Positions 2,352 to 62,229 of a stretch of DNA of 64,000 bases are shown here, in pieces (position 1 is the first letter of the stretch; each line of letters begins with the position of its first letter). A model generated the notes under the pieces. That model was not told where the DNA came from. It ran no database searches and saw only the letters and a program-made list of their open reading frames with translations. Location of the stretch: positions 2,329,001 to 2,393,000 of the forward strand of contig NZ_CP015136.1 in NCBI RefSeq assembly GCF_001618865.1, in the 5' to 3' direction. The position numbers and the translations under genes are program-made. The DNA comes from Luteitalea pratensis (GTDB lineage Bacteria > Acidobacteriota > Vicinamibacteria > Vicinamibacterales > Vicinamibacteraceae).

Positions 2352-3376
2352 CGGGGTTGCCGAAGCGTTGGCGCGGATCACAGCCGTCGACGAGCGTCGA
2401 CGATCGGGCACAGCAGGCATACCCGGGCATGCGCGGCCGCGGCGCGATCCGCGAGTCGACGGGACTCGTCCTCGTGCTGGTACTGCTGGTCGCGCTGTTC
2501 AGCGTCACCAGCGAGCACTTCCTGTCGCGGGTCACGTTCACGACGCTCGCCAATCAGTTGCCGGCACTCGCCGTGATTGTGGTCGGCATGACGCTCGTGC
2601 TGATCGCGGGCGGCATCGATCTCTCGGTCGGGTCGGTGATGGCTCTTGGTGCCGCCGTCCTCGGCGTGACGTTGACGCGCTGGCAATGGCCGGTGCCGCT
2701 GGCGCTCTCGGCGTGTGTCGGCGTCGGCGTACTGGCCGGCCTCGTCAACGGCCTGATCACCGTGCGTTGGTCGATCCCATCGTTCATCGTGACGCTCGGC
2801 ATGCTGGAGATCGCGCGCGGCGGCGCCTACGTGGCCACCGATTCCCGATCCGTCTTCGTGGGGAGCGCGCTCGACGGCGTCGGTGCACCGCTGCCTGTTC
2901 TCGGCGTCTCGCCCGCGTTCCTCGTCGCGGCACTGCTGGTCGTCGCCGGGGAGGTGTTGCTCACACGCACCGTGTTCGGCCGGTATCTCGTGGCGATCGG
3001 CACCAACCGTGAAGCTGTGCGGCTCTCGGGCATCGCGCCAGCACCGGTCGAGGTCGCGGTGTTCACGTTGTCGGGCGCCCTTGCGGGCCTGGCCGGCATC
3101 TTCCACGTGGCGTACCTCGAGTCGGTCGACCCCAACGCCGGTATCGGACTCGAGCTGTCGGCGATTGCCGCAGTCGTGATCGGCGGCACGAGCCTCATGG
3201 GCGGCCGCGGATCGGTCGTCGCGAGCTTCGTCGGCGTGCTGATCATCGTGGTCCTGCAGGCGGGACTGGCCCAGATCGGCGCCACCGAACCCACCAAGCG
3301 CATCGTGACGGGGCTGGTCATCATCACGGCCGTGATCGTCGATGCATGGCGCCGACGGTGGCAAAAGAACCGATGA
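2348..3376 (+). CDS. Sugar ABC transporter permease (RbsC type)
   Basis: Membrane permease of the ribose-type importer, 342 residues with about eight to ten hydrophobic segments. The family stretch VVGMTLVLIAGGIDLSVGSV is clear, as is GTNREAVRLSGI in the cytoplasmic loop that contacts the ATPase. The start is taken as the GTG at 2348, which overlaps the TGA of the ATPase gene; the frame stays open further upstream but only as a shadow of that gene. A 7-bp repeat array begins inside the stop codon of this gene. Confidence 0.9.
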   Translation: MTGLPKRWRGSQPSTSVDDRAQQAYPGMRGRGAIRESTGLVLVLVLLVALFSVTSEHFLSRVTFTTLANQLPALAVIVVGMTLVLIAGGIDLSVGSVMALGAAVLGVTLTRWQWPVPLALSACVGVGVLAGLVNGLITVRWSIPSFIVTLGMLEIARGGAYVATDSRSVFVGSALDGVGAPLPVLGVSPAFLVAALLVVAGEVLLTRTVFGRYLVAIGTNREAVRLSGIAPAPVEVAVFTLSGALAGLAGIFHVAYLESVDPNAGIGLELSAIAAVVIGGTSLMGGRGSVVASFVGVLIIVVLQAGLAQIGATEPTKRIVTGLVIITAVIVDAWRRRWQKNR

Positions 3377-3444
3377 ACGCTGAACGCCGAACGCTGAACG
3401 CCGAAGGGAGTCGGGAGTCGGGAGTGGGGATCGGGAATCGCCGA
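3375..3444. repeat. 7-bp tandem repeat array
   Basis: Ten consecutive heptamers in one register: GAACGCT/GAACGCC alternate four times, then GAAGGGA, GTCGGGA twice, GTGGGGA, TCGGGAA and TCGCCGA. The array begins within the TGA of the permease gene (3374-3376). Nearly the same series recurs at 3698. The whole stretch 3377-4046 holds no convincing gene apart from repeats and the leader of the next gene. Confidence 0.85.
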
Positions 3445-3490
3445 CGGCAGCATCGGGCCGTCCCGGCCTGGCGTCGTTGCCAAGTCAAGC

Positions 3491-3514
3491 GTCGACCTTA
3501 AGGTCGATGCCTAC
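3491..3514 (-). repeat. REP-like hairpin with GTAG head
   Basis: GTCGACCTTAAGGTCGAT is a near-perfect palindrome followed by GCCTAC. Read on the minus strand it is GTAG plus a hairpin, the layout of REP elements. A sibling with the same core lies at 11647. Confidence 0.6.
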
Positions 3515-3615
3515 GTACCGCAGGGCCGAGCGTCGCCGTCGCCCTTCCAGCTTCGCTGAGGCTACGGCGGACAAGTCAGGTCGACGGGGGCCAGCGCGGT
3601 GCAAAAAGACCCGGC

Positions 3616-3657
3616 CAACGCTGAACGCCGAACGCTGACCGCCGAACGCCAGTCGCC
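3616..3657. repeat. 7-bp tandem repeat array
   Basis: Six heptamers of the GAACGCT/GAACGCC family (CAACGCT, GAACGCC, GAACGCT, GACCGCC, GAACGCC, AGTCGCC), running directly into the REP-like element at 3660. Confidence 0.75.
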
Positions 3658-3659
3658 GC

Positions 3660-3683
3660 GTCGACCTGAAGGTCGACGCCTAC
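3660..3683 (-). repeat. REP-like hairpin with GTAG head
   Basis: GTCGACCTGAAGGTCGAC is a palindrome with one mismatch at its centre, followed by GCCTAC. On the minus strand this reads GTAG then hairpin. Confidence 0.6.
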
Positions 3684-3697
3684 CGGGCAGATTCGAC

Positions 3698-3753
3698 GAA
3701 CGCTGAACGCCGAACGCTGAACGCCGAAGGGAGTCGGGAGTCGGGAGCCGGGA
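3698..3753. repeat. 7-bp tandem repeat array, near copy of the array at 3375
   Basis: Eight heptamers: GAACGCT, GAACGCC, GAACGCT, GAACGCC, GAAGGGA, GTCGGGA, GTCGGGA, GCCGGGA. This is almost the same order of units as the array at 3375, which points to duplication of the array or repeated conversion. Confidence 0.8.
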
Positions 3754-3872
3754 ATCGTCGGCGGTAGCATCGGGCTGTCCCAGCCCGATGTCGTGACGAC
3801 CTGCGAATCCGCCCCAGCACCAGGCCGTGCGCATTTTCATGGCCCAGTCGCAGGACTGACACGAACTTTGGT

Positions 3873-9662: not shown

Positions 9663-9673
9663 GCCTGGGACGT

Positions 9674-9715
9674 CAGGTCTCAAGTCTCAAGTCTCAGGTC
9701 TCAGGTCTCAGGTGA
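9674..9715. repeat. 7-bp array, CAGGTCT/CAAGTCT family
   Basis: Six heptamers (CAGGTCT, CAAGTCT, CAAGTCT, CAGGTCT, CAGGTCT, CAGGTGA). The interval 9625-9934 between two genes contains only repeats and hairpins. Confidence 0.8.
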
Positions 9716-11218: not shown

Positions 11219-11247
11219 GTATGGTCCTCGTTGACGATTGACGGTCC

Positions 11248-11303
11248 CAGGTGTGAAGTCCCAGGTCTCAGGTCTCAGGTCTCAGGTTCCAAGTCTCAGG
11301 CAC
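11248..11303. repeat. 7-bp array, CAGGTCT family
   Basis: Eight heptamers (CAGGTGT, GAAGTCC, CAGGTCT three times, CAGGTTC, CAAGTCT, CAGGCAC) upstream of the sugar isomerase-like gene. The whole of 11219-11882 is non-coding repeat mosaic apart from the nuclease promoter. Confidence 0.8.
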
Positions 11304-11490
11304 GATCTCCGCCGACGCCGACTTGTCCGCCGGAGCCTTGGCGAAGGCGGAACGCCGAACGCTCAGGCAGGGCCAGGCAATCCAGAGTCCCGATCCAGTA
11401 CCCGGTTGCCCGGTGCCCGGTGCCGATACCTCTAGACCCGGCTACTACTACGCCCGACCGCGACAAACTGTATCGTGGGCCTCATGGGTC

Positions 11491-11574
11491 ATGCCTGAGA
11501 CCTGAGACCTGATGCCTCACCCTCAGGTCTCACGCCTCAGGTCTCAAGTCTCAAGTCTCAGGTCTCAGGCTGAC
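11491..11574. repeat. 7-bp array with inverted halves
   Basis: Twelve heptamers in one register: ATGCCTG, AGACCTG twice, ATGCCTC, ACCCTCA, then GGTCTCA/CGCCTCA/AGTCTCA units and GGCTGAC. The early AGACCTG units are the reverse complement of the later CAGGTCT series, so the array could fold back on itself. Confidence 0.8.
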
Positions 11575-19180: not shown

Positions 19181-19285
19181 TAAGCCGTAAGCCGCAGGCC
19201 ATAAGCCGTAAGCCCTAGGCCGTAGGCGGTACGCCGCAGGCTGCAGCCGCGAAGCGTTAGGCGTTAAGCGTTAGGCATTAATTAA
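19181..19285. repeat. 7-bp array that changes sequence in register
   Basis: Fifteen heptamers: TAAGCCG twice, CAGGCCA, TAAGCCG, TAAGCCC, TAGGCCG, TAGGCGG, TACGCCG, CAGGCTG, CAGCCGC, GAAGCGT, TAGGCGT, TAAGCGT, TAGGCAT, TAATTAA. It ends just before the stop codon at 19289. Confidence 0.85.
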
Positions 19286-19666: not shown

Positions 19667-19893
19667 CGTATGTGACTCCTGCTGTGCCTTGGGGATGAGG
19701 ACGCCGGCGCAGCGTTGGCGTTCTGCAGGGGAATACGCCCGCCCTATCGGCCTCGTTCCTCGTTCATGACACGCGGCGCAAGTCTTCACGGCGATGGCAA
19801 GAAGCTGCGACAACTCGGCTCAGATCGAGGGTTGGCGCCACAAAATCGCAACATCTACGGGTACGCCTCGCTCAGTGGGATGCACCACTGGGA

Positions 19894-19998
19894 TCGGGAG
19901 TCGGGAACCGGGAGTGGGAACCGGGAACCGGGAATCGGGAATCGGGAACCGGGAACCGGGAAATCGGGAATTGGGGATCGCGGATCGGGATCGGGGAT
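19894..19998. repeat. 7-bp array, TCGGGAA/CCGGGAA family
   Basis: About fifteen units of TCGGGAA, CCGGGAA and variants, with one 6-bp and one 8-bp unit that shift the phase. The interval 19667-20049 holds no gene that I can support. Confidence 0.8.
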
Positions 19999-21011: not shown

Positions 21012-21035
21012 GGACCGCTCGGAGAGCGGTCCCTA
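21012..21035 (-). repeat. REP-like hairpin, opposite orientation
   Basis: GGACCGCT-CGGAG-AGCGGTCC followed by CTAC; on the minus strand GTAG plus hairpin. It faces the similar element at 20867 across the 21-bp repeats, like a REP pair. Confidence 0.6.
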
Positions 21036-21133
21036 CCAAGGATGCGGTCCCTACCAAGGATGCGGTCCCTACCAAGGATGCGGTCCCTACCAGCGATGCG
21101 GTCCCTACCAACGATGCGGTCCCTACCTGCGAT
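21026..21133. repeat. 18-bp tandem repeat, six copies
   Basis: GCGGTCCCTACCAAGGAT and variants begin at 21026, 21044, 21062, 21080, 21098 and 21116. The unit equals the right arm plus CTAC tail of the REP-like hairpin at 21012, so the array probably arose by amplification of the hairpin end. Confidence 0.9.
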
Positions 21134-28354: not shown

Positions 28355-28389
28355 GAACGCTGAACGCTGAACGCTTAACGCTTAACGCC
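28355..28389. repeat. 7-bp array, GAACGCT family
   Basis: Five heptamers: GAACGCT three times, TAACGCT, TAACGCC. Confidence 0.75.
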
Positions 28390-28447
28390 TTCACACGGTG
28401 CCCGACGTGTACCCGGAACCCGGCACCCGGGGGCATTAAGGCCCGAC

Positions 28448-28475
28448 GAACGCCGAACGCCGAACGCCGAACGCC
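28448..28475. repeat. 7-bp array, GAACGCC family
   Basis: Four identical GAACGCC heptamers. Confidence 0.75.
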
Positions 28476-28523
28476 GTATCGAGCTTTACACGGTGCCCGG
28501 TATCCGAAAACTTGTGCCCGGCT

Positions 28524-28579
28524 GTACCCGGAACCCGGAACCCGGAACCCGGTACCCGGTACCCGGTACCCGGTACCCG
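28524..28579. repeat. 7-bp array, GTACCCG/GAACCCG
   Basis: Eight heptamers: GTACCCG, GAACCCG three times, GTACCCG four times. It ends 24 bases before the kinase start codon, overlapping where a promoter -35 region would be. Confidence 0.85.
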
Positions 28580-28603
28580 GTGTTCCTCCATACTGGGGCG
28601 GAA

Positions 28604-30238: not shown

Positions 30239-30287
30239 CTAACGCCTAACGCTTAACGCCTAACGCTGAACGCTGAACGCCGACCGT
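30239..30287. repeat. 7-bp array, CTAACGC/TGAACGC
   Basis: Seven heptamers: CTAACGC twice, TTAACGC, CTAACGC, TGAACGC twice, CGACCGT. The interval 30221-30742 has no gene; it holds arrays, REP-like hairpins and a terminator stem. Confidence 0.75.
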
Positions 30288-30303: not shown

Positions 30304-30345
30304 CGTCTCAGGTCTCAAGTCTCAGGTCTCAAATCTCAAGTCTCA
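30304..30345. repeat. 7-bp array, GGTCTCA/AGTCTCA
   Basis: Six heptamers: CGTCTCA, GGTCTCA, AGTCTCA, GGTCTCA, AATCTCA, AGTCTCA. Confidence 0.75.
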
Positions 30346-30478
30346 GGCAGGGCCCGAACCTCGTACGCGAGGAACGAACGTCGAACAAGGCCCGGCGAGG
30401 ACAGGCGCGACAAACGCTGAACGCCACCGCCGGCATCGTTCGGCGACTCCAGACTCCCGACTCCCCGCGCTGGCGTCC

Positions 30479-30531
30479 GTCGACCTGATTTGTCCGCCGT
30501 AGCCTTGGCGGGGGTGGAAGGTCGACGGCTT
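30479..30531. repeat. Composite palindromic repeat, copy of the one at 9787
   Basis: GTCGACCTGATTTGTCCGCC, then GTAGCCTTGG..., ending in AAGGTCGACGGC, as at 9787 with a few changes. Confidence 0.6.
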
Positions 30532-31642: not shown

Positions 31643-31775
31643 CTCTCAAGTCTCAAGTCTCAAGTCTCAAGTCTCAGGTCTCAGGTCTCAGGTCTGGCCT
31701 GAGACCTGCAGCCTGCCGCCTCCAGCTTCCAGCTTCCAGCTTCCGGCTTCCGGCTTCCGGCTTCCGGCTTACATA
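31643..31775. repeat. Nineteen-unit 7-bp array changing sequence in register
   Basis: Nineteen consecutive heptamers without a phase break: CTCTCAA, GTCTCAA three times, GTCTCAG three times, GTCTGGC, CTGAGAC, CTGCAGC, CTGCCGC, CTCCAGC, TTCCAGC twice, TTCCGGC four times, TTACATA. It lies directly upstream of the dienelactone hydrolase gene. The interval 31634-32016 has no gene. Confidence 0.9.
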
Positions 31776-31824
31776 TACGGCGTTCGATACGCCGGCGTTT
31801 ATCGCGTGGCCCTGCACGCGGCGA

Positions 31825-31847
31825 GTGTCGAGCAAGCTCGACACCTA
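31825..31847 (-). repeat. REP-like hairpin with GTAG head
   Basis: GTGTCGAGC-A-AGCTCGACAC-type stem followed by CTAC; same core as the elements at 49576 and 49717. Confidence 0.6.
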
Positions 31848-31861
31848 CGTGTTTGCCGGGC

Positions 31862-31889
31862 GACTCCCGACTCCCGACTCCCGACCCGT
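31862..31889. repeat. 7-bp array, GACTCCC
   Basis: Three GACTCCC heptamers and GACCCGT. A second short run, GACGTTC/GGCGTTC/AACGTTC/GGCGATT, follows near 31900-31927. Confidence 0.65.
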
Positions 31890-31952
31890 GTCGGCGTGCG
31901 ACGTTCGGCGTTCAACGTTCGGCGATTGCCGGTGCACGGTGCCCGACCGTCT

Positions 31953-32015
31953 GGCGTCAGGCGTCAGACGTGAGGCATCAGGCATCAGGCATGAGGCATG
32001 AGGCATGAGGCATTC
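31953..32015. repeat. 7-bp array abutting a stop codon
   Basis: Nine heptamers: GGCGTCA twice, GACGTGA, GGCATCA twice, GGCATGA three times, GGCATTC. It ends one base before the stop codon at 32017. Confidence 0.85.
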
Positions 32016-33303: not shown

Positions 33304-33433
33304 GTAGGTAGCCGTATTCTCGCCCGAACGGGAGGCGTTTTGCGGCGTCGACCGTCAGACGTGACGCCCGGGCGTAGGACGACGGCGTGACGTCGCCGCA
33401 AACGCGATCCCGGCGATGGTCCTGACCAATGAA

Positions 33434-33503
33434 GCGTCAAGCGTCAAGCGTCAAGCATCAAGCATCAAGCATCAAGCATCAGGCATGAGGCATGAGGCAT
33501 GAC
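33434..33503. repeat. Ten-unit 7-bp array
   Basis: GCGTCAA three times, GCATCAA three times, GCATCAG, GCATGAG twice, GCATGAC, all in one register. It is related to the array at 31953. Confidence 0.88.
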
Positions 33504-38528: not shown

Positions 38529-38605
38529 CGGGGCGTAGCTCAGCCTGGTAGAGCGCTCGCTTTGGGAGCGAGAAGTCGCAGGTTCGAATCCTGTCGCCCC
38601 GACCA
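38529..38605 (+). tRNA. tRNA-Pro (anticodon TGG)
   Basis: Complete 77-nt tRNA with encoded CCA. Acceptor stem CGGGGCG pairs with CGCCCCG; D-arm GTAGCTCAGCCTGGTAGAGC; anticodon arm CTCGC-TTTGGGA-GCGAG with anticodon TGG; T-arm GCAGGTTCGAATCCTGT. Two partial copies of its 3' end follow in tandem. Confidence 0.95.
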
Positions 38606-38796
38606 TCCTCGCCCTGCTCGTCCGGTCGGAGTGTCAGCCTTCAGGCCCACGGCCCCGCCTTCGGCTCGCCGTCGGGCTCGAATCCTCCTCTCGCCCCGAC
38701 CATCCTCGCCCTGCTCGTCCGGTCGGAGTGTCAGCCTTCAGGCCCACGGCTCCGCCTTCGGCTCGCCGTCCGGCTCGAATCCTGTCGCCCCGACCA
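38582..38796 (+). repeat. Tandem repeats carrying the tRNA-Pro 3' end
   Basis: The tRNA 3' end (TCGAATCCT...TCGCCCCGACCA) plus about 70 bases of flank recurs. TCGCCCCGACCA ends at 38605, 38702 and 38796, so spacing is 97 and 94 bp. In both extra copies the T-arm reads GGCTCGAATCCT in place of GGTTCGAATCCT. The flank (TCCTCGCCCTGCTCGTCCGG...) is identical for over 40 bases between the first two copies. Confidence 0.92.
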
Positions 38797-38859
38797 CTCC
38801 TCGCGTGGCTCGTGTGGTCGTCACACGGGCCGCAGGGTTTCCGCGTACATCGCCGCTGG

Positions 38860-41589: not shown

Positions 41590-43724
41590 CCGTTGGGGGC
41601 GTCGACACTCGCGATGAGCCAGGTACCTCCTGTCCGCTGCAACGCGAACCGCCACCGGCCCTGCTGGATGCGCGTCGAGGAGTCGCCGACGCGCGGCCGG
41701 TAACGTCGCGTGCCAAGGCACGAGGCAATGGCACTGTCGCCGGTCACGGCGGTCGTGCACGACAACAGCGTCAGTCGCTGCTCACGCAATCCGGTGAACG
41801 TCTTGACCAGCGCCTGGCGGTCAGCCGACGGCCACACCGCCTTGGTGGCGCGGGCGTCCTGCCGGTTGTACGCGACGGCATAGCGCTGGATGGCGCCGAG
41901 TACGGCGGGCGCGGCCTGCGGTCGCGGCCGCGGTGCACTCGGCGTCACCGGCAGTCCGATGCCGGGAAACGTCTCGGCAGGAATCGTGACGGGGAACGGG
42001 GACACCGGCGCCTTCACGAGGCGGCTGGCCGGCACCATGCGCTGCAGCACCGTTGACGACCCGACGGCTCCGGTTTCCGCAGGCGCCGGGCGCGTCAGAT
42101 GCGGCGGAGATTCGGTGGCGGCGACATTTGCCGTGGCCGGCACTGGCGGTCCGCCGACGATGGCGAAGAGGACGCCCATCAGCATCCCGCCACCGACGAG
42201 GGCGAACCGCTCGACGGGTTCGACGCGGGATCGGGCCAGGGCAGCGCGCGCCGCAATGACCCAGGCACGCATGTGTGCCGCCGCCAGGTGCGGGCGTCCG
42301 GGGAAGGGCACCGCGTGTGTCTCGTCGAGCACCGGGATCTCCGGCGCGTCCATGGCCGGCTCCTCCGGGATCGCCCACGGCTCCGCGGCCGGCGGCCACT
42401 CGGATTCCGGCGTCGCCTCGATGAACTCCACGACCTGCGGCCACTCCCTGGTGAGCACCACTTCCCTGGCTTCCGGCTGCCCGGTGGCCCGCGGCAGTTC
42501 CACGATCGGTGGCAACGCGGCGACTTGCGGCACCTCGTGGGGCTCCGGCAACGCGTGCGCGGCAAGCAGCGCGTGGACGTCCGGCGGAGCCTGGAACACG
42601 TGCAGCACCGGTACGTCCAGGAACTCCAGGTTCTCCCGCAACTGCAGGGCCATCGCCATGTCGAGGACGTCCGGTGCCTGCAGCACCGGAGGCGGGTCCG
42701 GCACTTCGGCGTGTGCCGCCGCCTGTTGCGGGAGTTCCGGCAGTTCCGGCCACTGCGCCGCCTGCGGCGTGTCCTCCGCAGCCTCGAACTGCGGCACCGT
42801 CGGTACGTCCGCATGCTTGTGCTGCGGCAGGGCCGTGGCCACGTCGAGCAACTCCGCCGCCTGCAGCACCAGGGGCACGTCCGGCATGTCGGTCAGCGCC
42901 AGGACCGCCGCCAGCTCCGGAAGCGCCGCCAACTCCGGAATCTCCGAGAACTCCGGCAGCTCCGCCACATCCGGCGTGTCCTCCGCGGCCTCGACCTGTG
43001 GCACCACGGGTACGTCCACGGGCTCCGCGTTCTCACGCAGCGGTGGGGCCGTTGCCCCGTCGAGGCGTTCAGTCGCCTGCAGCACCAGCGGCACGTCCGG
43101 CATGTCGGTCAGCGCCAGGACCGCCGCCAGCTCCGGAAGCGCCGCCAACTCCGGAATCTCCGAGAACTCCGGCAGCTCCGCCACATCCGGCGTGTCCTCC
43201 GCGGCCTCGACCTGTGGCACCACCCCTAAGTCCGGGAGGTCGGGGGTTTCCCGCAACGGCAGGGCCGTGGCCGCATCCGGGAGCTCGGGCGTCTGAAGCA
43301 CCAGAGGCATGTCCGGCAGGTCGGTGTGGGTCACCGCCAGAAGCGTCGTCAGTTCCGGGAACTCCGGCGGCGCCGGCAACTCCGACAGCACTGGAAGCTC
43401 CGACAGCTCCGGAATCTCCGAGGACTCGATGGCTGGGAATGGTGATTCCGCGGCGTCGGGCCATTCGCCACTCGGCGGAGGCGTCAGCGCTTGGTCGGCG
43501 AACTGGATGCCAGGCGTGACCGCGGCGTCGGCAGGCTCGTCGAGATGCCGCCGCTTCATCAGCGCCTCGCGACAGTCCTGCGGTGCGGCGGCGGGTCGGT
43601 CGTCGACTCGCCAGAGCACCTGTCCGTCCTCCCCGTGCACGATCTCGATCACATCGAGATCCTGCAGGTCCGCGGCCGGGACAGGCCAACTGAGGTCCCG
43701 CCGCAACCGGGCCCGTGTCGTCAT
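41586..43724 (-). CDS. Repeat-rich single-pass membrane protein with C-terminal NTF2-like domain
   Basis: Protein of 712 residues that I cannot place in a known family. Residues 1-60 form a small charged head (LQDLDVIEIVHGEDGQVLWR). Residues about 100-400 are acidic, Pro/Leu/Glu-rich repeats of about 72 residues, such as TPDVAELPEFSEIPELAALP and LTDMPDVPLVLQ; two units are nearly identical. A Pro/Glu-rich spacer leads to one transmembrane helix (FALVGGGMLMGVLFAIVGG, about 512-530), a second linker, and a C-terminal NTF2/SnoaL-like domain (GAIQRYAVAYNRQDARATKA; WRFALQRTGGTWLIASVDA). The acidic repeats would be cytoplasmic and the NTF2-like domain periplasmic by the positive-inside rule (AARAALARSRVEP precedes the helix). 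Confidence 0.8.
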   Translation of the reverse strand: MTTRARLRRDLSWPVPAADLQDLDVIEIVHGEDGQVLWRVDDRPAAAPQDCREALMKRRHLDEPADAAVTPGIQFADQALTPPPSGEWPDAAESPFPAIESSEIPELSELPVLSELPAPPEFPELTTLLAVTHTDLPDMPLVLQTPELPDAATALPLRETPDLPDLGVVPQVEAAEDTPDVAELPEFSEIPELAALPELAAVLALTDMPDVPLVLQATERLDGATAPPLRENAEPVDVPVVPQVEAAEDTPDVAELPEFSEIPELAALPELAAVLALTDMPDVPLVLQAAELLDVATALPQHKHADVPTVPQFEAAEDTPQAAQWPELPELPQQAAAHAEVPDPPPVLQAPDVLDMAMALQLRENLEFLDVPVLHVFQAPPDVHALLAAHALPEPHEVPQVAALPPIVELPRATGQPEAREVVLTREWPQVVEFIEATPESEWPPAAEPWAIPEEPAMDAPEIPVLDETHAVPFPGRPHLAAAHMRAWVIAARAALARSRVEPVERFALVGGGMLMGVLFAIVGGPPVPATANVAATESPPHLTRPAPAETGAVGSSTVLQRMVPASRLVKAPVSPFPVTIPAETFPGIGLPVTPSAPRPRPQAAPAVLGAIQRYAVAYNRQDARATKAVWPSADRQALVKTFTGLREQRLTLLSCTTAVTGDSAIASCLGTRRYRPRVGDSSTRIQQGRWRFALQRTGGTWLIASVDAPNG
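42861..43225. repeat. 216-bp in-frame tandem duplication in the repeat-rich gene
   Basis: The segment beginning CTGCAGCACCAG recurs at 42861 and 43077, an exact offset of 216 bp (72 codons), and is almost identical for about 145 bases. Flanking copies at lower identity extend the array on both sides. Confidence 0.85.
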
Positions 43725-48053: not shown

Positions 48054-49570
48054 CGAGAGCCGAGCTCGCGGACCTTCAGGTTGCGGAACCACACCACCGT
48101 GTCGTGGTCCTGCAGCAGGATCGGCGTGCGGATCTTGTCGGCGAACCCCTTGACGTCCTTGAACTTGCTCGTGGCGATGCCGCGCGCGGCCTCAACGCTC
48201 GTCATGTCGTAGGCGAGCACGAGCGTGCCGTTCAGCCAGTGCTCCACGGTGGTGCCGCGGACGACGAGCCGGGACGAGTTCCACTCGCCGACAGGGCGGG
48301 CGGCCGTCTTCGCGGGCGGAATCACGTCGTACCACGCGCCGGTCTTCTGCCGCTCGGTCAGCGACATCACCGTGTAGTTGTCGTCGTCGATCGTCTGGTA
48401 CTCGTGACCGATCGCGCCGCCGGCGTTGCCGCGCGTTTCGTCGACGAAGTACTTGACGCCGCTGTTGCCCTGGAAGGAGAGCCGCCAGTCCCAGGCGAAC
48501 TCGAAGTCGCCGTAGGCGGTGGTCGTGATGATGTCGCCGCCCTTCCTGCCGAGGCCCTTGATCGTGCCCGCCTCGACCACCCAGCCCTCGGTGGGGAAGG
48601 ACTGCTTGGCGAAGCCCTTCCACCCCGTGGTGGTCTTGCCGTCGAACAGCAGCTTCCAGCCGTCGGCCTTCTCTTTGGCCGTCAGGACGTTCTGCGCCGT
48701 CGCACCGGCGGCGCCTTCGTCGAGTTGCGCGGCGATGCGGCGCCACGTCGCGATGTTGGCCGCGAGGTTCTGGCGCGGATCGCCCGGCACGTTGTACGCC
48801 TGCAGGCCGATCGGTCCCGTGTAGCCGGCCGCCCGCAGCTTGCGCAGGTACGCGACGAGATCGAAGTCGCCCTGGTCGAGCCGCGTGATGTAGTTCTTCG
48901 CAGCGACGTCGACGCCATTGATGCTGACGCGGGTCGCCTTGGCGGCCACGGCCTCGACCGCGGCGTCGACCTTGTCGCCGACGCCGCTCATGTACTCGTG
49001 ACACAGGTTGATGGTGGCGCCGAGATTCGAGCGATGCGCCTTGGCGACCACGCGTGCCGAGTCCAGCGCGTGCTCCACGTAGAAGCCGGCATGGCCGTAG
49101 AGCGCAACCTGCACGCCGTGCGGCTTTGCGAGGTCAGCCACCCGCTGCACCACCGCCACCGCCCTGGCCTCGTCGTCCGCACTGGCGCTCTTCGGCTTCT
49201 GCACGGTGATCCAGATCGTGGTGGGCGTGCCCTTCAGCATCGCCACGGCCTCCGGCAAGCGAGGGTCGAAGGCCTCCGCACGATCAATGTACGTGTACAG
49301 GTACAGGCCGTAGATCTTCAGGTCGACGGCGGCGAACGCCTTCTGCCAGCGCGCGAGGTCCTCGGGCGTCGTGTAGTTGTAGCTGATGCCGTCGTAGCCG
49401 AGTTCCTTGAGCGTCTGCGCCTGCTGCTCGGGTGTCCAGGAGCCGCGCCCGACGCCGTTGTCGAACACGAAGAATTCGGGCCTGGGCGCCGAAGCGTCGG
49501 CGAAGGCGGCCCGCCCCGCAAACGCTGGGGCGCTCGAGAGGAGCAGCACGAGGGCGAGCAGGGCGGTCAT
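48050..49570 (-). CDS. TIM-barrel sugar isomerase-like domain fused to DUF1080
   Basis: Exported protein of 506 residues with signal peptide TALLALVLLLSSAPAFAG. Residues about 30-285 form a xylose-isomerase-like TIM barrel (ELGYDGISYNY, GATINLCHEYMSGVG, GYTGPIGLQAYNVPGDP). Residues about 305-506 form a DUF1080/3-keto-disaccharide-hydrolase jelly roll (WKLLFDGKTTTGWKGF, GEWNSSRLVVRGTTVEHWLNG). This combines two activities on sugars in one chain; DUF1080 relatives hydrolyse 3-keto-glycosides. There is no ribosome site before ATG 49570: a REP-like hairpin sits 5 bases upstream. It is coupled to the MFS transporter gene. Confidence 0.83.
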   Translation of the reverse strand: MTALLALVLLLSSAPAFAGRAAFADASAPRPEFFVFDNGVGRGSWTPEQQAQTLKELGYDGISYNYTTPEDLARWQKAFAAVDLKIYGLYLYTYIDRAEAFDPRLPEAVAMLKGTPTTIWITVQKPKSASADDEARAVAVVQRVADLAKPHGVQVALYGHAGFYVEHALDSARVVAKAHRSNLGATINLCHEYMSGVGDKVDAAVEAVAAKATRVSINGVDVAAKNYITRLDQGDFDLVAYLRKLRAAGYTGPIGLQAYNVPGDPRQNLAANIATWRRIAAQLDEGAAGATAQNVLTAKEKADGWKLLFDGKTTTGWKGFAKQSFPTEGWVVEAGTIKGLGRKGGDIITTTAYGDFEFAWDWRLSFQGNSGVKYFVDETRGNAGGAIGHEYQTIDDDNYTVMSLTERQKTGAWYDVIPPAKTAARPVGEWNSSRLVVRGTTVEHWLNGTLVLAYDMTSVEAARGIATSKFKDVKGFADKIRTPILLQDHDTVVWFRNLKVRELGSR

Positions 49571-49575
49571 CGTGC

Positions 49576-49596
49576 GTCGAGCAAGCTCGACACCTA
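49576..49596 (-). repeat. REP-like hairpin at a start codon
   Basis: GTCGAGC-AA-GCTCGAC followed by ACCTAC, only 5 bases upstream of ATG 49570. A degenerate copy near 49615 and another at 49717 lie further upstream. The interval 49571-49887 is repeats only. Confidence 0.65.
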
Positions 49597-49716
49597 CACC
49601 CCAGAGGATCGAGCGTCGAGCAAGATCGACGGCGACACGCCGGAATACGACCGCGCCGATGAGGCTTTGCGTTGCAAACCGTGACTCCTCCGAGCATCCC
49701 GTCGAACGCCCGCCGA

Positions 49717-59891: not shown

Positions 59892-59899
59892 GGGAGAAA

Positions 59900-59997
59900 G
59901 GACGGAGGACGGAGGAGGGAGGACGGAGGAGGGAGGACGGAGGAGGGAAGATGGAGGTCTGAGGTCTCAGGTCTCAGGTCTTAGGCCTTAGGCCTCT
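59900..59997. repeat. Fourteen-unit 7-bp array that switches family in register
   Basis: GGACGGA twice, then GGAGGGA/GGACGGA alternating, AGATGGA, GGTCTGA, GGTCTCA twice, GGTCTTA, GGCCTTA, GGCCTCT. The GGACGGA family turns step by step into the GGTCTCA and GGCCTTA families with no phase break. Confidence 0.92.
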
Positions 59998-61449: not shown

Positions 61450-61462
61450 CAGCCCCGCGAAA

Positions 61463-61518: not shown

Positions 61519-62229
61519 TCAAGACACTGGACGTGCCTGGGGTGTTCCGGCTGGCTTCTTCGCTGCGTCCTGTTTCTGCCCTTGTTCCTCCGTCCTCGCT
61601 CCTCCGTCCTCCGTCCTCACTCCTCCGTCCTCCTTCCTCTCTCCTCCGTCCTTCCCTGGGGCCTCCACCCACCGCAGGTTGCGGGTGAGGGGGTGGCGGA
61701 GATCGACGTGGCCGGCGAGGGTGTCCACTTCCTGGCCGTCGATGAGGATCTGCACGCTCTTGATCGCCGGCAGGTTGACGGTGATGGCGTTGACGATCGT
61801 GTACACGGCGAAGAGTTCGTCGAGGCTGCCGCCGCGGTGGTTGGTGACGGCTTCCTTGGACAGGTCCACGAAGGCGGTGCCGTCCTCGGCGATGAAGATC
61901 TGCCGCACACGGGTGCCTTCGGCGATGGACTGCGCCAGGGGCGCGGGAGCGGGCTGCAACTGCGCCTCCACGAGCGCGCGAGCCTGCTCGGCGGGCGTTG
62001 CCCCGAACGGCACGTCGGCATCGACGGCGGTGAGGTGGAGGCCGTCTTCGGCGACGTAGAACAGGCTGGCGCGGATCTTCCCGGTCGCCTCGCCGCTGGC
62101 GGCAGCGTCGGCGCGCGGCACTTCGACGGTGGCGGGCGCGAACCAGCGCGGCACCAGCACCACACCCACGATCCCGATCAACACGGCGGTCATCACGCCG
62201 AGCAGCGCGACGACGACCGGTCGGCGCAT
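61519..62229 (-). CDS. GerMN-domain membrane protein
   Basis: Protein of 236 residues with one N-terminal membrane helix (VVVALLGVMTAVLIGIVGVV) and a GerMN domain (about 70-185; HLTAVDADVPFGATPAEQAR, IFIAEDGTAFVDLSKEAV, IVNAITVNLPAIKSVQILID). GerMN is found in germination and sporulation proteins and as a partner of cell-wall amidases. The last 45 residues (EDGGVRTEDGGARTEEQGQK) are encoded by a 7-bp repeat array and have a 7-residue period. It follows the amidase gene in a TGATG junction. The order amidase-gerM-rph-rdgB is similar to the gerM-rph-rdgB order of Bacillus. Confidence 0.87.
   Translation of the reverse strand: MRRPVVVALLGVMTAVLIGIVGVVLVPRWFAPATVEVPRADAAASGEATGKIRASLFYVAEDGLHLTAVDADVPFGATPAEQARALVEAQLQPAPAPLAQSIAEGTRVRQIFIAEDGTAFVDLSKEAVTNHRGGSLDELFAVYTIVNAITVNLPAIKSVQILIDGQEVDTLAGHVDLRHPLTRNLRWVEAPGKDGGERKEDGGVRTEDGGARTEEQGQKQDAAKKPAGTPQARPVS
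61588..61657 (-). repeat. 7-bp array inside a coding region (C-terminal tail)
   Basis: Ten heptamers in register: CTCCGTC, CTCGCTC, CTCCGTC twice, CTCACTC, CTCCGTC, CTCCTTC, CTCTCTC, CTCCGTC, CTTCCCT. They are the reverse complement of the GGACGGA family next door. Confidence 0.9.

Follow-up and report, generated by a model that had tools for sequence, protein, structure and literature searches.

Heptanucleotide tandem arrays dispersed in the intergenic DNA of Luteitalea pratensis are consistent with an origin in replication slippage

The window analysed here, 64,000 nucleotides of the Luteitalea pratensis genome (positions 2,329,001–2,393,000 of a single contig of 7,480,314 bases, 100% complete), carries tandem arrays of 7-nt units at many sites. 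At the focal tract, 31643–31775, an earlier note had described nineteen units in unbroken phase; the tract consists instead of two arrays, 31644–31695 and 31705–31770, joined by a 9-nt stretch. One 7-nt frame can be traced across this joint, but the identity of successive units there falls to 3–4 of 7 positions. Arrays resembling the first of the two occur at several tens of further sites in the genome. The focal intergenic gap measures ~394 bp in L. pratensis and ~100 bp, with no arrays, in the related genome G004. The arrays of the window include the following, listed together with the focal joint:

3374–3757, + strand: clustered GAACGCT/GAACGCC and GGGAGTC arrays, in part a diverged direct duplication
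9673–9713, + strand: TCAGGTC/TCAAGTC array
11243–11569, + strand: GGTCTCA array, then an inverted same-class pair, CCTGAGA / CTCAGGT
19181–19236, + strand: TAAGCCG array
19893–19997, + strand: TCGGGAA / GGGAACC array
28355–28388, + strand: AACGC-class array, upstream of the kinase gene
28447–28476, + strand: AACGC-class array, four units of CGAACGC
28526–28581, + strand: ACCCGGA/ACCCGGT array adjoining the kinase start, of a replication-polar class
30239–30280, + strand: TAACGC/GAACGC array, directly after the kinase stop
30305–30345, + strand: GTCTCAA/GTCTCAG array
31644–31695, + strand: focal heptad array, four units of TCTCAAG then three of TCTCAGG (class ACCTGAG/AAGTCTC)
31696–31708, + strand: joint, in which 31698–31708 forms an 11-bp perfect inverted repeat with 31675–31685 (hairpin apex)
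31705–31770, + strand: second focal heptad array, drifting from CCTGCAG through CCTCCAG and CTTCCAG to CTTCCGG
31861–31885, + strand: CGACTCC heptad array, in the focal intergenic gap
31948–32013, + strand: heptad array drifting from CGTCAGG through CATCAGG to CATGAGG
33432–33502, + strand: array drifting stepwise from AAGCGTC through AAGCATC to AGGCATG
59899–59995, + strand: array drifting stepwise from AGGACGG/AGGAGGG through AGGTCTC to AGGCCTT
61586–61657, + strand: TCCTCCG array, the inverted partner of AGGACGG at 61462

Repeats of other kinds also lie in the window. A REP-like dispersed repeat (gtcgacctgacttgtccgccgtagccttggcgaagg...gtcgac) is found at 30477–30530 and near 3540, 9780 and 11310; it has many genome copies at 94–96%, often in gaps that hold heptad arrays, and the strand list of its copies gave no evident replication orientation. 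The short palindromic repeat gtcgagcaagctcgacacctac, a dispersed intergenic element, occurs at 31820–31850 and 49570–49600, and a near-perfect 18-nt tandem repeat, GCGGTCCCTACCAAGGAT, runs for 5.7 copies between called genes at 21026–21127. At 38529–38804 lies a 97-nt tandem repeat (91% matches) whose start is overlapped by a tRNA gene, and a 712-aa ORF for which Pfam gave no match contains a 216-bp tandem duplication and 9/18-nt repeats (42830–43325). Comparison of the window with Rfam returned only one tRNA, and no match pointing to a phage origin was found.

Arrays of every period were scored identically (lag match +1, mismatch −2, score at least 12), with Markov sequences as the control. 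Lag 7 yielded 34 arrays in the window and each other lag from 3 to 13 yielded 0 or 1; Tandem Repeats Finder agreed with this scoring, and Markov shuffles of the window contained no lag-7 array. The earlier note's count of more than twenty arrays, nearly all of 7 bp, is thus borne out, and the units that it listed were found. A genome sample of 1.66 Mb (the window plus 80 further stretches of the 7.48-Mb genome) held 18, 273, 43 and 24 arrays at periods 6, 7, 8 and 9, respectively. Among the 273 at period 7, 256 lay outside called genes and 17 within them, the calls being approximate (home-made codon-bias gene caller). Intergenic arrays at periods 4 to 10 numbered 1, 1, 5, 256, 41, 9 and 2, with 1, 1, 5, 70, 18, 8 and 2 distinct words, so that the sharp genome-wide excess at 7 with many units, as had been predicted, holds. 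Across 291 kb of L. pratensis intergenic sequence, exact-match runs of at least 10 numbered 271 against 1.0 expected at lag 7, 31 against 0.8 at lag 8 and 8 against 1.0 at lag 6. The arrays share two marks of the heptanucleotide long simple-sequence repeats (LSSRs): their tandem units, of 5–11 nt and mostly of 7, form runs longer than chance would give, and they prefer non-coding DNA. Neither a spread of periods nor confinement to one contig or assembly, both named beforehand as grounds against the pattern, was seen.

The earlier note had gone further and described the intergenic DNA as built from such arrays. The arrays are genuine and greatly exceed chance expectation, but they occupy only ~2–5% of intergenic bases in the sampled genome (roughly 21–51 bases in each intergenic kb), and no 7-periodicity is left in intergenic DNA outside them; intergenic DNA therefore contains arrays and is not built from them. 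Array content per kb is highest in convergent gaps and lowest in divergent gaps, and arrays are present in 34% of the former versus 18% of the latter in the sampled genome. We also observed array deserts at ~2.74–3.4 Mb and 1.87–2.14 Mb, where consecutive 20-kb samples held no heptad arrays; other samples held 6–9.

The sequence of the arrays is not free, and a limited set of words is favoured. The first 161 arrays have 56 dominant words, whereas sampling of the intergenic heptamers around them would give 141; four words recur 12–17 times, and the top word occurs 17 times versus ~3 expected. Array words are linked to one another by single substitutions, and along arrays unit identity goes from 0.89 at one unit to 0.71 at seven units. 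Words are also oriented to genes: those of the AACGC type point away from the nearest gene, those of the ACCCGG type towards it. The idea that length and not sequence is selected is not supported, in view of this concentration and linkage of words and of the ties of some words to the gene edge and to replication direction. A GGG tract is present in every unit of the ACCCGGT, ACTCCCG and AATCGGG classes, and not in AACGCCG, ACCTGAG or most others. Same-class arrays compared by eye showed no shared flanks; a carrier element with common flanks was rejected, no constant end sequence being seen around same-word arrays.

Replication direction was read from the two single-contig genomes, L. pratensis and its sister species G001, both of which start with dnaA and dnaN, dnaA being at base 1. 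Termini were estimated from cumulative GC skew at ~4.2–4.4 Mb in L. pratensis (taken near 4.35 Mb) and ~3 Mb in G001 (taken near 3.25 Mb). In whole-genome scans with words picked after seeing the sample, 30 of 32 ACCCGGT ×4 loci in L. pratensis read in the leading-strand direction (p = 2e-7), as did 43 of 53 CTGAGCC arrays in G001 (p = 6e-6). No polarity was found for ACTGCCG in G001 (16/27) or for ACGGAGG in L. pratensis (10/18), and the ACCCGG pattern is nearly missing from G001 (3 matches at 2 places). Summed over words in the sample, polarity exceeded that of 5,000 relabellings (p = 0.0002); the bias of genes to the leading strand is mild (57%). Single heptamers outside arrays showed no comparable bias (intergenic AACGCCG rotations 534:534, ACCCGGT 156:125), so polarity is a property of the arrays. 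At the word level, polarity was related weakly to strand foldability (rho −0.34, p = 0.08) and to G–C content (rho −0.43, p = 0.02), a weak trend for the leading-strand sequence to be the less foldable or less G-rich of the two.

Two rival accounts of this polarity were considered. The strong orientation of some words could be that of chromosome-handling guides, KOPS- or Chi-like, that happen to sit in arrays. This reading was rejected because single copies lack a comparable bias and hence the leading-strand skew of such a motif; moreover, the polar words differ between the sister species and arrays do not cluster near the terminus, which makes it hardly credible. Alternatively, a transposase acting on single-stranded lagging-strand DNA (HUH/Y1 or REP-associated) could spread the repeats and thereby give them polarity, which would suit the polar words, the recurrence of words with unrelated flanks and the dispersed REP-like sequences in heptad-array gaps. 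However, Y1_Tnp matches are few and weak in L. pratensis (4, best E 5e-7) and their count does not track heptad content (13 in G030 and none in G002, both with arrays), for which reason it was rejected as the cause. A REP/HUH element would be marked by conserved ends or a palindrome, together with a Y1 transposase to match; these were not found, as no constant end sequence was seen at the arrays and Y1_Tnp matches are few. The REP-like sequences are without evident orientation bias. We consider a transposase of this kind quite improbable.

Among related Vicinamibacteria, period 7 recurs with different words. The single-contig genome of G001 has 39 period-7 arrays in 400 kb, mostly of other words, so that words differ between species of one genus; the period also peaks at 7 in G002, G004, G005, G023 and G030. 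Octamers are as many as or more than heptamers in two relatives, G022 and G029. Octamer arrays of G029 and G022 (such as TTTGGAAA / ATTTCCAA) were seen as close inverted pairs (L072:14040–14112, L074:18243–18336 and L082:11523–11628). Several relatives gave zero arrays in the short samples read. Draft assemblies may collapse arrays. A survey around one conserved gene found 13 heptad arrays in 248 kb at 16 acidobacterial loci, and 3 in 1.0 Mb, one of them a G run, at 55 betaproteobacterial and other loci. Repeats are error-prone in assembly, but an assembly or sequencing artefact is a negligible prospect here: the L. pratensis genome is one contig and 100% complete, a second single-contig genome shows the pattern, and independent draft assemblies show it too, yet it is rare in Betaproteobacteria.

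These periods bear on the earlier suggestion that a machine or structural constraint selects length 7. An enzyme dedicated to adding or copying 7-nt steps, such as a template-carrying polymerase, could produce a sharp period with many words that is common to several species. Period 8 is also in excess, however, and in two relatives its arrays are as many as those of period 7 or more, so that 7 is a threshold-like peak and not a strict rule; the period-8 tail and the octamer-rich relatives speak against a strict 7-nt step. Nor would local drift of the unit along an array be expected from templated addition off one template. These data gave no evidence for such a machine, and we judge a dedicated enzyme highly improbable.

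Comparison of sister species reveals turnover of arrays. Upstream of the kinase gene, L. pratensis has AACGC and ACCCGG (ACCCGGT) arrays; the orthologous gene in G004 is preceded by GTGCCCG and ACTCCCG/TTCCCGG arrays ending beside CCATACT, as in L. pratensis, and the orthologous gap in G001 has no array. Downstream of the kinase stop, AACGC-type units are present in both L. pratensis and G001 (GAACGCC-type).

The arrays might instead be selected as oriented functional elements at gene borders (hairpin-forming 3′ ends, terminators or mRNA stabilizers), with 7-nt units as the scaffold. As RNA, the focal tract folds better than 200 shuffles (z −3.9), in part through potential pairing between AAGTC in the left unit and GGCTT in the right one. 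A selected role is also suggested by the threefold enrichment of inverted pairs of same-class arrays (15 versus 5.0 expected), the enrichment in convergent gaps, the orientation of several words relative to the gene edge and the close inverted pairs formed by the octamer arrays of G022 and G029. Yet general complementarity of neighbouring different-word arrays was rejected, such arrays being less complementary than re-paired controls, and the long fold of the focal tract is therefore probably partly chance. Arrays are missing or replaced at orthologous gaps, only 18–34% of gaps carry one, and some words follow replication direction, all of which weigh against a common function; we regard this explanation as unlikely.

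A limited, changing word set, together with some arrays that follow the direction of DNA copying, suggests that copying slips make the arrays. We consider it probable, at roughly 0.6, that they arose by replication slippage, with a minimum register near 7 nt, and spread within individual genomes. Strand slippage at chromosome replication would make and reshape the arrays, which would be tolerated chiefly in intergenic DNA. A chance tandem pair of ~7 nt could expand if the slipped primer end kept ~7 paired bases, enough for the polymerase; shorter chance pairs would not be extended and longer ones would be rarer, which would produce the cliff below 7 and the declining tail above it. The distinct words at periods 7–10 (70, 18, 8 and 2) do fall approximately as chance tandem pairs get rarer, as such a threshold model predicts. 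Repeated slippage with occasional substitutions may cause the stepwise unit change seen along arrays. The word concentration and unrelated flanks suggest that a few words have spread to many intergenic sites without their flanks. The fork orientation kept in several classes would fit expansion or loss of foldable repeats that depends on their orientation or, alternatively, spread through single-stranded DNA at the fork. Slippage of this kind would require neither a dedicated 7-nt enzyme nor a common regulatory role.

The slippage account has its limits. Word concentration needs a spreading step beyond slippage alone, and it does not explain why words favour one side of a gap; the octamers that rival heptamers in G022 and G029, the weak relation of polarity to strand foldability and the lack of polarity of ACTGCCG in G001 count against it. 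No slippage event was seen in the comparison of one internal duplication and of sister species. A one-unit indel between the duplication copies at 3374–3757 was rejected as support for slippage, as their lengths differ by 6 nt and not 7. Loss of mismatch repair was likewise rejected, as MutS-family matches were present in 12 of 12 genomes tested. As a tentative extension, which we rather doubt, slippage-born words could be carried from gap to gap as single-stranded fork fragments, so that an array keeps its fork orientation. If true, the genome would contain a repeat vocabulary that spreads by itself and whose words turn over within a genus, with no mobile-element protein.

The reason for the preference for seven in bacterial tandem repeats has been a question since 2007. 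The prokaryote heptanucleotide excess and the 7-nt polymerase-contact idea are already published: in the excerpts of PMC4692102 and PMC4679880, Mrazek et al. (2007) are cited for unit 7 as the most abundant long-repeat class in most prokaryote genomes and for the proposal that 7 reflects the DNA length contacting the polymerase and favouring slippage. Those excerpts on heptanucleotide LSSRs mention neither polarity, stepwise drift, within-genus word change nor Vicinamibacteria, and our partial coverage of the literature found no paper on heptad repeats in this lineage or their replication polarity, which looks new. Hundreds of arrays with a sharp period, drift, polarity and fast turnover between sister species, both with single-contig genomes, make the slippage and polymerase-contact idea testable on natural arrays; were spreading through fork DNA shown, repeats could multiply without a transposase.

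Individual repeat families show how far the likeness goes. The GGGAATC / GGGGA(C/T)T repeats of Xanthomonas and Nostoc, as excerpted from PMC4692102, are intergenic, depleted in divergent gaps and near ORF ends. Depletion in divergent gaps and nearness to ORF ends are common to these GGGNATC repeats and the L. pratensis arrays, and GGGAATC-type arrays occur in L. pratensis (class AATCGGG) and G004. The Xanthomonas/Nostoc class is, however, defined in that excerpt by G-quadruplex capacity and a four-unit preference, whereas most L. pratensis words (AACGCCG, ACCTGAG, ACGGAGG) lack GGG. In Beggiatoaceae, according to the excerpt of PMC4679880, TAACTGA repeats are intergenic tandem heptamers at many loci, as in L. 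pratensis, but are of one word and mostly just upstream of start codons; TAACTGA is absent from the common array classes of L. pratensis. The likeness to cyanobacterial STRRs (Calothrix, Nostoc/Anabaena) drawn in the earlier note holds in kind only: dispersed intergenic tandem heptamers are found in both, but the STRRs have few fixed consensus sequences (three heptanucleotides reported for Calothrix in the excerpt of PMC4692102), whereas the L. pratensis sample has ~70 dominant words with lineage-specific use.
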